Of a stretch of DNA of 64,000 nucleotides, positions 43,998 to 48,038 are shown one piece after another. Source of the DNA: Chloroflexota bacterium (lineage in GTDB: Bacteria; Chloroflexota; Anaerolineae; Aggregatilineales; Phototrophicaceae); the NCBI GenBank assembly GCA_028875245.1, contig JAPPEU010000025.1:62001-126000 (forward strand), in the 5' to 3' direction. A model generated the notes under the pieces. It saw nothing but the letters and a program-made list of their open reading frames with translations. It was not told the origin of the DNA and did no database searches. The position numbers were made by a program, and so were the translations under genes. Every line of letters begins with the position of its first letter. The stretch's first letter is position 1.

Positions 43998-45281
43998 TCA
44001 GCGCGGTAAAACCTCTTTCACTGTACCATGAATCGCGCCGTCGGTATACGCGCCGAGTTGAGTTGCGGTGATGGTGTTCGTCAAGTTGCGCGGATGAACG
44101 CAGCGAACGCGCATATAGTTGTCTGTGTAGCCGCTGATGGTGAAGCCGCGCGGCGTCGCGCCATCCACCTGTTCCCAAAGCACCTCGCCCTCCGTGCCGC
44201 AGAGATCGGCCGCAAAGCGCGCTTCCATACGCCGGGACAAAGCGCGCAGCCGCCCGCTGCGGGCTTTCTTGTCGCCGTCGCTCACCTGGTTTCTCATGCG
44301 GCTGGCCGGCGTGCCCGGCCGACTGCTGTAGCGGAAGACATGCAATCCCGCGAAGTCCATTTCGCGAATGAACCTTTCGGACTCATCGAATTCCTCGTCC
44401 GTTTCCCCGGGGAAGCCGACGATGACATCGGTAGTCAGGCGCAAGGCGGGAATGCTGGCGCGGGCCGACGCGAGCAGATCGCGGAATTGCCGCTGGCTTG
44501 TGTGACGCCGCATCCGTTTCAGGGTACGGTCGCAGCCGCTCTGCAAGGGCAAGTGCAAATGACGACACAGGCGACGATCCCCCCAAAGGCTGAAAAAGCC
44601 GGGCGCCAGGTCCCATGGCTCCAGGGATGACAGCCGAATGCGCGGCATGTCTGTGTCGCGGAGCAGCGCTCGCACGAGCTGGCTCAAGCCGGCTCGCTCG
44701 CCCAGGTCATGGCCATAACTGCCGAGATGGACGCCCGTCAGCACGATCTCCTGATAACCGGCTGCCTGTAGATAATTGACTTCGCGCAGGACCTCGCTGA
44801 TGGGGCGGCTGCGGCCGGCGCCGCGCGCAATCGTGGTGACGCAAAAGGTGCAGGCCTGGTCACAGCCATCTTGTACTTTGACGAAGGCGCGGGTCCTGCC
44901 AAATGGGGCCTCGCGTTCCAATGGCTCGCTGTCAAAGATATCGATTCCTTCGCCCGTTATCTGCGAAACCAGCTGTGATTTGCCGGCGTTATCCACCACG
45001 CGCCGCACACCCGGCAAGCGCCCGATTTCCTGAGGCGCAAGCTGCGCGTAACAGCCGGTGACGGTCGTTTCGCCCTTGGGGTTTGCCCGGTGGAAATCTC
45101 GAATCAACTTGCGGCTTGTTTTGGCCGCCTCGCTGGTCACCGCGCAGGTATTGATGATGAAATGATCGGCCTCGGCGGCTGAATCGACAATTTCGTGGCC
45201 GAGGGCGCTCAGCTGCCGCGCCATCGCGTCGATCTCACTTTGGTTTAGGCGGCAGCCCACCATGCGCAGCTGCGTTTTCAT
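43998..45281 (-). CDS. mtaB: tRNA t6A37 methylthiotransferase MtaB
   Basis: A 427-residue radical-SAM enzyme that adds a methylthio group to t6A37 of tRNAs decoding ANN codons. The N-terminal MTTase domain includes MVGCRLNQSEIDAM and INTCAVTSEA. The radical SAM cluster motif is CDQACTFCVTTIARG (CxxxCxxC). GVHLGSYG and LHLPLQSGCDRTLKRMRR are further conserved blocks, and a TRAM-type domain closes the protein. The ATG is joined to the stop codon of the upstream gene by ATGA. Confidence 0.95.
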   Translation of the reverse strand: MKTQLRMVGCRLNQSEIDAMARQLSALGHEIVDSAAEADHFIINTCAVTSEAAKTSRKLIRDFHRANPKGETTVTGCYAQLAPQEIGRLPGVRRVVDNAGKSQLVSQITGEGIDIFDSEPLEREAPFGRTRAFVKVQDGCDQACTFCVTTIARGAGRSRPISEVLREVNYLQAAGYQEIVLTGVHLGSYGHDLGERAGLSQLVRALLRDTDMPRIRLSSLEPWDLAPGFFSLWGDRRLCRHLHLPLQSGCDRTLKRMRRHTSQRQFRDLLASARASIPALRLTTDVIVGFPGETDEEFDESERFIREMDFAGLHVFRYSSRPGTPASRMRNQVSDGDKKARSGRLRALSRRMEARFAADLCGTEGEVLWEQVDGATPRGFTISGYTDNYMRVRCVHPRNLTNTITATQLGAYTDGAIHGTVKEVLPR

Positions 45282-46171
45282 GCTTTGGCATCCTCGCCGC
45301 CGGGGACGGCCGGGCTCAAGACGATGACATTGTCAAAGCGCAGGACGACCCCAGCGCCGCCGGTGCCGGTGGATTGCGCCATGACGCCGATTTTGCCGGT
45401 CCCGTTACTTTCGTCTTGATAAACATCAAGCATTCTCCCGTCAATGCACTCGCCGCCGACATAGGTGCTGGCGGCGTCTTCATCATCCGGCAGGCAGACT
45501 GAAACGGGAGCGCCGTTGATGGTGAAGCGGTAACGGGCATCGCGGGCGAGCACGCGAATCGTGTTTGCCGCGTCAAGCCCCTGACGAATATGCGGCGAGG
45601 GAATCCAGGCGCTTTTCTGCCTGGTCGTTCCCGCTTCGGTCTTCCACAACGAATAATAGCCATCGCTGCTTATCAAGAAGGCGTAATAACCGGCGGATTC
45701 GGTCACCGGGATGATTTGACGCAGGGCAGCGCCGACCAGTGGCAAGCGCCGATCAACCTCGCAGAGAATAATGGCGGGCAATCCGCAGGAATTATCCGGG
45801 CGTTCTTTTGCTTGAAAAACGACGCCAAATGCGTTATCGACGGGTCCTTGGATCGCTGTCGCCTTGACCGTCAGATCGAAGTCACGGAATTGAGGGCGCG
45901 CGGCCGACCAGGTCGCAGTTTGCGCGCTGGACACCGTCAGCTCAAGCTGCTCATCGACGATTGCCGCGCTCTGCTGCCCGGCGTACAGTTCCCATTCATC
46001 CTGGAAACCGGAAAAATCCGACACATAAAGCAGCGCGCCGGGGGGGGCTTCTAATACAGCGCCCTGCTTCGCCAGCCCGGCGTAGACGAGGTTGGCGGCG
46101 ATCACCGCGAGCGCAAGACAGACAGTCGCCAAGACCAGGATGCGTCTGACGGGAGGTCTCTTAAATCTCAT
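45278..46171 (-). CDS. Membrane-anchored protein with a concanavalin-like domain
   Basis: A 297-residue protein from the ATG at 46171 (MRFKRPPVRR). After a basic start there is one membrane segment (ILVLATVCLALAVIAANLVY), so the remainder is outside the cell. The outer domain reads as a beta-sandwich of the concanavalin/DUF1080 type: LLYVSDFSGFQDEWELYAGQ, then FDLTVKATAIQGPVDNAFGV and FRFDNVIV-like VVLRFDNVIVL near the end. Cys residues in NSCGLP, IILCEVD, VSVCLP and GGECIDG may form disulfides. No function is assigned. Its stop overlaps mtaB. Confidence 0.7.
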   Translation of the reverse strand: MRFKRPPVRRILVLATVCLALAVIAANLVYAGLAKQGAVLEAPPGALLYVSDFSGFQDEWELYAGQQSAAIVDEQLELTVSSAQTATWSAARPQFRDFDLTVKATAIQGPVDNAFGVVFQAKERPDNSCGLPAIILCEVDRRLPLVGAALRQIIPVTESAGYYAFLISSDGYYSLWKTEAGTTRQKSAWIPSPHIRQGLDAANTIRVLARDARYRFTINGAPVSVCLPDDEDAASTYVGGECIDGRMLDVYQDESNGTGKIGVMAQSTGTGGAGVVLRFDNVIVLSPAVPGGEDAKA

Positions 46172-46359
46172 AGTGGAAACTGACGTAGACTCAGACACTG
46201 TACCGGCCGTGCCAAATCTGAAGTGAACGCCGAGATTCTAGCACAGCGCGGCGATATCGTAAATGACGAGGAAAAGAGCCGTTGCGCCTGGCGTTGCGAT
46301 TATCGCTGCTGACATCTTTCCTTCTCAGTCACATGCGGCGACCGAGATGTTGACGGGTC

Positions 46360-46388
46360 TTGACAGGTCGAGTTTATGACAGTAGAGT
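46360..46388 (+). promoter_or_regulatory. Promoter of the lysC leader
   Basis: A perfect TTGACA (46360-46365) is followed at 17 bases by TAGAGT (46383-46388), giving a start near 46395. A second, weaker TTGACG lies at 46350-46355. Confidence 0.75.
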
Positions 46389-46419: not shown

Positions 46420-46512
46420 ATGTTTGCAGCCGAGTCCATCAAGATCACAATGATGACCATGACGACTACGATGCGCCAAGGCGCGCGACGTGGAGGTTTC
46501 GCTTTGCTGTAG
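46420..46512 (+). CDS. lysC leader peptide rich in Ile/Lys/Thr/Met codons
   Basis: A 30-codon reading frame from the ATG at 46420 to the TAG at 46510-46512, or 20 codons from the ATG at 46450. Codons at 46438-46473 read IKITMMTMTTTM without interruption. All four amino acids are made from aspartate through aspartokinase, the enzyme encoded next. The remaining part is RQGARRGGFALL. This is the pattern of a regulatory leader peptide such as ThrL, extended to Lys and Met. Neither start has a strong Shine-Dalgarno sequence: AAGG at 46396-46399 is distant, and AAGA lies five bases before 46450. Confidence 0.75.
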   Translation: MFAAESIKITMMTMTTTMRQGARRGGFALL

Positions 46513-46556
46513 ACGCAATAGGACGAGCGGCAAACGGGCGTGTGGAAACCTCCACG
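46489..46556 (+). promoter_or_regulatory. Antiterminator pairing of the lysC leader
   Basis: CGTGGAGGTTTC (46489-46500), inside the leader ORF, is perfectly complementary over 12 bases to GAAACCTCCACG (46545-46556). That partner lies in the apex of the terminator, so both structures cannot exist together. A ribosome stalled on any codon of 46438-46473 would cover bases up to about 46485 and leave the first strand free. A ribosome at the stop codon (46510) would cover much of it. Confidence 0.7.
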
Positions 46557-46570
46557 CGCCCGTTTTATTT
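46532..46570 (+). terminator. Attenuator terminator before lysC
   Basis: A stem of 12 pairs (46535-46546 with 46551-46562, one G-T) around the loop AACC is extended by three A-T pairs, then TATTT. It ends 11 bases before the lysC ribosome binding site, so it acts on lysC and not on an upstream gene. Confidence 0.85.
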
Positions 46571-46592
46571 GTCTGAGAGCGAGGAGTTGTTG

Positions 46593-48038
46593 ATGGCCAG
46601 ATTCACGATGAAATTCGGCGGCACGTCGGTGGGGTCGCCCGCGGCAATTGAGCAGGTCGCCAAGATCGTTCGCGACTATTTGGCGCAGGGTCATGAGTTG
46701 GCGGTCGTGGTATCCGCCATGTCGGACATAACCGACATGCTGCTCGAATCGGCTGCGGCGGCCGCTGCCGGAGACAAAGACAGCTGCCTCGCCATCAATG
46801 CCGCCATCGGCGACAGGCATCTGGCCGTCATCGACGCCCTGATTGACGCGCGGACGCCGCGTGACGCAATCCGCCATACAGTCGCCGGATTGCTGCGGCA
46901 GCATCGGGAACTGTGCGAAGCCGTCAGCATTTTGGGCGAGGCAAGCCCACGCATATCGGACGCGCTTGTATCTTTCGGCGAACGCCTGAGCAGCCGCGTT
47001 CTCACCGCCGTCATGGCCGCCGAAGGGCTGCCGGTGAAGCAGTTCGACTCCAATCGCTATATCATAACGGACAACGACTTTCAGAATGCCGATCCACTCT
47101 GGGAAGAGACCGAGTCGCGAATCACTGGGGGACTGCTTCCGGAAACGAAGGCCGGCATTACACCCGTCATCACCGGCTTCATCGGCGCCACGCCGGACGG
47201 GACGCTCACGACCTTGGGGCGCGGCGGGAGCGACTTCAGCGCGGCCATCTTTGCCGCCTGCCTCGGCAGCGACGAGTTGATCATCTGGACCGATGTCGAC
47301 GGCGTGATGACGACCGACCCGCGACTGGATGAGCGGGCGCGGGTCTTGCCCTATGTGTCTTATCAAGAGATCGGCGAGCTCGCCTTTTATGGCGCGAAAG
47401 TCCTGCATCCCAAAACGGTGCAGCCGATCATCAGCCGCGATATCCCCCTGCGCGTCCGCAACACATTCAATCCCTCGGAGGCCGGCACTTTGGTCGGCTC
47501 GCGCCCCCAGACAAGCGAAACCGTGATCAAGGCCGTTACGGGCATAAGAGACGTCTCCATGCTGACTGTCGGCGGGCCCGGAATGCTGGGCGTGCCTGGT
47601 ATCGCCGGGCGGACGTTTCTGGCGACGGCCAGCGCGGGCGCCAACATCTTGATGATTTCACAGGCTTCCTCCGAGCAGAGCTTCTGTTTCACCGTTGTCG
47701 ACCCGCTGGCGCATCAAGTGAAAACCGCGGTGGAGCGAGAGCTGCAGCGAGAGATTCTGCACAAGGACATTGACAGCGTGGATGTGCTGAGCGAAATCGT
47801 CATCATCACGGTCGTTGGCTCGGGGATGCGCGGTACGCCCGGTGTGGCCGGCCGCGTGTTCTCGCTGTTAGGCGAGCACGGAATCAACGTCTTGGCGATC
47901 GCGCAGGGCTCATCCGAATGCAGCATTTCTTTCATCGTCGCCGAGGATGACCTGGAGCGGGCGGTCGGCGAGCTGCATACGCTGGCGCTTGAGACGGTGG
48001 AGAATGATTGTGTCAACGGCTTGGCCAGCCCTTATTGA
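46593..48038 (+). CDS. lysC: Aspartate kinase
   Basis: Phosphorylates aspartate, the first step towards lysine, threonine, methionine and isoleucine. The 481-residue protein has the kinase signature MKFGGTSVGS (6-15), the substrate/ATP blocks GFIGATPDGTLTTLGRGGSD and FSAAIFAA, and two ACT domains (about 320-390 and 405-475) that bind effectors. MLTVGGPGMLGVPGIAGR and VVGSGMRGTPGVAGRVF begin them. It is a stand-alone kinase with no homoserine dehydrogenase fused. The ATG at 46593 has GAGGAG six bases upstream. Expression is probably governed by the leader attenuator, with feedback on the protein through the ACT domains. Confidence 0.96.
   Translation: MARFTMKFGGTSVGSPAAIEQVAKIVRDYLAQGHELAVVVSAMSDITDMLLESAAAAAAGDKDSCLAINAAIGDRHLAVIDALIDARTPRDAIRHTVAGLLRQHRELCEAVSILGEASPRISDALVSFGERLSSRVLTAVMAAEGLPVKQFDSNRYIITDNDFQNADPLWEETESRITGGLLPETKAGITPVITGFIGATPDGTLTTLGRGGSDFSAAIFAACLGSDELIIWTDVDGVMTTDPRLDERARVLPYVSYQEIGELAFYGAKVLHPKTVQPIISRDIPLRVRNTFNPSEAGTLVGSRPQTSETVIKAVTGIRDVSMLTVGGPGMLGVPGIAGRTFLATASAGANILMISQASSEQSFCFTVVDPLAHQVKTAVERELQREILHKDIDSVDVLSEIVIITVVGSGMRGTPGVAGRVFSLLGEHGINVLAIAQGSSECSISFIVAEDDLERAVGELHTLALETVENDCVNGLASPY

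Follow-up and report, generated by a model that had tools for sequence, protein, structure and literature searches.

Within the Rfam collection of leaders, attenuators are represented by the His, Leu, Thr and Trp leaders, for which a survey of 2013 suggests a gammaproteobacterial origin with few transfers (PMC3766115). Attenuators have also been reported for trp and ilvB in Actinobacteria (PMC1262725) and for his in Firmicutes (PMC9413887). A broad survey of attenuation by Lopatovskaya et al. (2010, Mol Biol 44:128), as it is cited in PMC4833913, might overlap with the case described here. In the open literature we found no paper on an aspartokinase attenuator of Chloroflexota or on a leader combining Thr and Met codons, which is weak evidence as only open papers were covered.

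The analysed stretch of 64,000 nucleotides from an uncultured Chloroflexota bacterium, referred to as the window, contains a leader region which resembles these systems in layout but is not recognised by the Rfam models. It lies in front of the gene for aspartokinase, with which the pathway to threonine and methionine starts. At the gathering threshold Rfam reports only a tRNA in the window and no SAM-I riboswitch (RF00162), and relaxing the threshold adds no more than weak matches to tpke11 and Thr_leader. The Thr_leader model (RF00506) scores 13.7 bits (E 4.1) on the leader, below its gathering threshold of 55 bits. On the basis of the data presented below, the region 46420-46570 very probably constitutes a ribosome-dependent transcription attenuator which adjusts aspartokinase to the availability of charged threonyl- and methionyl-tRNA.

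The aspartokinase gene and its leader

The target gene named by the initial annotation is substantiated by the match of its product to the aspartokinase profile TIGR00657 (401 bits at a cut-off of 208.7). ThrA, the bifunctional aspartokinase/homoserine dehydrogenase I, gives the second-best NCBIfam score with 452 bits, which is under its own cut-off. Both flanking genes are located on the minus strand and aspartokinase therefore stands alone. Upstream of the leader promoter, a divergent gene (45278-46198, minus strand) encodes a protein of 306 residues whose N-terminal part includes a hydrophobic stretch and for which NCBIfam gives no match. Also nearby on the opposite strand is the gene for MtaB (43998-45281), the tRNA t6A methylthiotransferase whose targets are tRNAs reading ANN codons, a class including the Thr and Met codons; this vicinity is probably a coincidence.

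The promoter (Table 1) has a counterpart in the relatives, where TTGACA, a spacer of 17 nucleotides and a TA-rich hexamer are seen by eye at the corresponding site; a strict pattern matched only some of them. The leader open reading frame, its codon run, the three alternative helices with their conservation and the identity of the target gene are all read from the sequence and its comparison among relatives. An equivalent leader reading frame is present in 34/34 genomes of the same genus (in L026 by eye); the genomes of close relatives include metagenome-assembled ones recorded as "Chloroflexi bacterium" or "Anaerolineae bacterium". Between this reading frame and aspartokinase a strong intrinsic terminator is placed.

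Elsewhere in the same genome, neither inspection nor the covariance model search revealed such a leader at the second aspartokinase (L002, 36% identity), and no matching leader was found at homoserine dehydrogenase, again including the covariance model search. The SAM-I riboswitches of this genome precede, according to sequence reading, metK and a Cys/Met-type PLP enzyme on other contigs.

Table 1. Position of the leader elements and of the aspartokinase gene in the window
Feature	Position	Strand	Basis
Promoter, sigma-70-like, TTGACA-N17-TAGAGT	46360..46388	+	read directly
Leader peptide ORF, 30 codons, MFAAESIKITMMTMTTTMRQGARRGGFALL*; stop codon at 46510	46420..46512	+	ORF reading
Regulatory codon run ACA ATG ATG ACC ATG ACG ACT ACG ATG (T M M T M T T T M)	46447..46473	+	codon counts
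Protector hairpin (1:2): 46461-46463/46496-46498, 46466-46470/46489-46493, 46472-46476/46483-46487	46461..46498	+	ViennaRNA, alignment, shuffles
Antiterminator 5' strand (region 2): 46489-46500 and inner 46504-46510	46489..46510	+	folding, alignment
Antiterminator 3' strand (region 3): 46527-46533 and 46545-46556	46527..46556	+	folding, alignment
Intrinsic terminator hairpin (3:4), 15 bp	46532..46565	+	folding; 92% of cells paired, 34 genomes
T-rich tract of the terminator	46563-46570	+	read from sequence
AGGAG before aspartokinase	46582-46586	+	read from sequence
Aspartokinase, ThrA-like, 481 aa, monocistronic	46593..48038	+	ORF reading, NCBIfam profile

Three helices competing for the same strands

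The anatomy of the leader, as read from pairing and alignment, is of the classical 1:2, 2:3, 3:4 type, and all three helices are conserved with 85-92% of cells paired over the 34 genomes, slid controls being lower. The antiterminator is based on the segments 46489-46500 (CGTGGAGGTTTC) and 46545-46556 (GAAACCTCCACG), which are exact reverse complements over 12 nucleotides as previously annotated; dinucleotide-shuffling the upstream region 5000 times never produced a length of 12 (mean 5.7, maximum 11). The 5' segment lies in frame in the last part of the leader reading frame (CGT GGA GGT TTC, encoding RGGF), again in agreement with the initial annotation, and the 3' segment spans the terminator positions 46545-46546, the loop and positions 46551-46556 of the right arm. 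Since this segment is shared by both structures, antiterminator and terminator are mutually exclusive, and the earlier view of only one form at a time is thus retained. The proposed 12-bp pairing likewise stands but did not capture the full extent of the antiterminator, which continues into an inner helix (46504-46510/46527-46533) with 95% of cells paired in the 34 genomes. In the relatives 46491-46500/46545-46554 forms a well preserved core, and the two pairs farthest out are frequently missing. Covariation of the antiterminator gave no signal above shuffles (227/500 reach the score), and in distant leaders its longest contiguous helix is often short and within the shuffle range.

The initial annotation recognised no good upstream complement of 46489-46500 and hence no protector hairpin. 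This point has to be revised, as 46461-46476 pairs with 46483-46498. ViennaRNA folds 46461-46498 as GAC..CUACG.UGCGC......GCGCG.CGUGG..GUU, in which CUACG pairs with CGUGG and UGCGC with GCGCG. The left arm extends over the codons ATG ACG ACT ACG ATG CGC, i.e. the last Thr/Met codons, and the right arm over 46489-46493 and 46496-46498, which is most of the 12-nucleotide antiterminator strand. In the 34 leaders of the genus 89.4% of cells are paired, compared with 28-59% when the partners are slid by 1-3 bases, and most relatives fold independently to the same protector or, in the GCCC/GGGC group, to a register-shifted version. In most relatives its stability exceeds that of shuffles, with a mean z of -2.4 over 36 leaders; weak protectors are indicated by the shuffle z-scores of L007, L012, L026, L027, L029, L062 and L065. 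The observed exchanges fit pairing: 46469:46490 occurs as C-G, U-G or U-A, and 46470:46489 as G-C in the window and as C-G in one relative. Covariation is modest, with 7/500 shuffles reaching the score and changes on both sides in only one pair, so that the evidence for the protector consists in conserved pairing and stability rather than in strong covariation. The elements of an attenuator were found together: codons for end products of the pathway, a terminator, an antiterminator excluding it and a protector on the regulatory codons, the latter modest in covariation and marginal in the window.

The effect of ribosome position was analysed by equilibrium folding of the RNA emerged to set positions with a ribosome masked either as stalled or at the stop codon, which corresponds to the comparison of occupied and free leader codons suggested in the initial annotation. 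With the window RNA emerged to 46556 and a stall at 46456, 46462 or 46471, the antiterminator probability is 0.99; with the ribosome masked at the stop codon it is 0.00 throughout. The genus means are 0.74 for the stalled ribosome and 0.00 for the ribosome at the stop. A Kinwalker-like co-transcriptional heuristic, which is crude and too greedy, gave mixed outcomes depending on the barrier chosen, and the window in its stalled state did not yield the antiterminator. The alignment row of L026 is misaligned; it was omitted from this heuristic, and its values in the genus-wide folding are not meaningful.

Without a ribosome, the window forms the antiterminator with a probability of 0.99 at 46556, 0.54 at 46558 and 0.01 at 46560. 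The first of these values would suit a minimal two-state switch composed of antiterminator and terminator only, with readthrough by default whenever the leader is untranslated, and so would the antiterminator probability of at least 0.37 without ribosome in 12/33 leaders including the window; moreover, the inner helix might act as a toehold invading the protector. We nevertheless regard such a switch as improbable, because a conserved protector hairpin exists, the protected form is favoured in 21/33 leaders at the 46556 stage and the balance in the window is shifted to the terminator by 46560. Default readthrough, as postulated in the initial annotation, is accordingly disfavoured in those 21 relatives but may still occur in the window, where, at the decision stage, the protector is of marginal stability rather than absent as argued originally.

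Consistent with the equilibrium folding we propose the following scenario for the attenuator. When threonine or methionine is short, a ribosome would stall on the regulatory codon run and cover the left arm of the protector; judged from a downstream footprint of ca. 15 nucleotides, it should end before 46489. The 5' strand of the antiterminator would then be free to pair with its 3' strand, so that the terminator could not form and aspartokinase would be transcribed. When both amino acids are plentiful, the ribosome is expected to reach the stop codon and to cover the antiterminator strand, whereupon the terminator would halt transcription. With no ribosome on the leader, the protector would sequester region 2, so that termination is the probable outcome by default, even though the protector is marginal in the window sequence. 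The stalling, the co-transcriptional timing, the actual regulation and the sensing of methionine alongside threonine are what we infer from this arrangement.

Threonine and methionine codons as the signal

In the window, 9/11 of the leader codons -24 to -14 specify Thr or Met. Over the 34 leaders of the genus, the same positions contain 46.5% Thr and 33.4% Met (together 80%), 3.5% Ile and 0.3% Lys codons; for comparison, the corresponding values for the aspartokinase gene are 7.1% Thr and 2.1% Met. In 30 leaders belonging to other genera, the best 10-codon windows contain 51% Thr and 30% Met, in sum about 82%, of which only the split between Thr and Met is informative as the windows were picked for Thr+Met. 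The Thr codons of the leaders are mostly ACT (88/184), a codon rare in aspartokinase (3/34 Thr codons); it may have been selected because its isoacceptor responds most strongly to starvation.

A leader sensing threonine only, with Met codons that are fortuitous or dictated by RNA structure, would agree with the excess of Thr over Met, with the resemblance of the enzyme to the aspartokinase domain of ThrA and with the overlap between the ATG codon at 46471 and the protector. This reading appears unlikely, though deserving consideration, in view of the ca. 30% Met codons in the 30 other-genus leaders of unrelated sequence and of a SAM-I riboswitch at the orthologue in three of the four examined members of a sister family (see below). 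The persistence of Met in otherwise unrelated leader sequences suggests that Met is sensed as well as Thr. The similarity of the RGGFGLL-like C-termini within the genus appears to be dictated by the RNA; the leaders of other genera end in different peptides (e.g. MRGMIRLP in L030 and GWGYLRLV in L066), and a complementary strand is, upon inspection, still present.

Leaders responding to antibiotics are likewise built from a leader reading frame and a terminator, and on grounds of this shared layout the leader might report general translation arrest, e.g. stalling by an antibiotic, instead of amino acid supply. Such a function is very improbable in view of a codon bias that agrees with the end products of the controlled gene's own pathway and of the exclusive linkage of the leader to aspartokinase within the genus.

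Distribution and relation to known systems

A covariance model search gave one strong match per genome in 34/34 genomes of the genus (E<=7.3e-22), all upstream of aspartokinase; because these genomes also supplied the model, the search tests uniqueness and not discovery. The model also matches G036 with 3.4e-8. Beyond the genus the leader sequences differ, and cases were defined by a reading frame with at least 6/10 Thr/Met codons followed by a terminator, the observed scores being reached by 0/100 shuffles each. By this definition, a Thr/Met-rich leader and a terminator precede the orthologue in 20/26 sampled genomes from other genera of the same family and in 7/14 genomes of a second family (f3). 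L096, L099 and L109 represent weaker cases, no Thr/Met leader was detected in the fetched upstream regions of L067, L106 and L107, and none was seen upstream of the orthologue in the families f2, f7 and f8. The f3 leaders (L076, L077, L079, L113, L119, L124 and L125) carry an unrelated, GCCGGYTGCTT-like antiterminator core, and their relation to the leaders of the first family might reflect either common origin or convergence. In the sister family f4 of the same order, a SAM-I riboswitch is located upstream of the orthologue in 3/4 genomes (L069, L071 and L072; 88-95 bits), and its position in place of the leader supports Met as an input.

Taken together, we consider it reasonably probable that the leader represents an undescribed class of attenuators which reads Thr and Met codons together and controls aspartokinase in no fewer than two families within a single order of Chloroflexota, a SAM-I riboswitch taking its place in a sister family. 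If so, a single gene would document turnover between the sensing of tRNA charging and that of a metabolite, and how one RNA sensor came to replace another could be followed directly there. An order-wide Thr/Met attenuator in Chloroflexota would argue for a greater age or a repeated origin of the mechanism, and the leader would be a candidate for a Met-responsive leader peptide.

The mechanism as such is classical, while the phylum, the Thr+Met codon pair and the spread over two families are apparently undescribed. The trp/ilvB attenuators of Actinobacteria and the his attenuators of Firmicutes share the combination of leader peptide, terminator and antiterminator outside the Proteobacteria but concern other amino acids, genes and phyla. 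The gammaproteobacterial Thr_leader, exemplified by E. coli thrL, corresponds in its leader peptide with Thr codons, its alternative hairpins, its intrinsic terminator and the ThrA-type aspartokinase downstream. The Chloroflexota leader differs from thrL in its host, in the second residue, which is Met instead of Ile, and in the controlled unit, which is thrABC in the one case and a monocistronic gene for a monofunctional aspartokinase in the other. In contrast, the SAM-I riboswitch of f4 senses SAM directly and without a leader peptide, but it occupies the same position at the same aspartokinase and also couples this enzyme to the Met branch.
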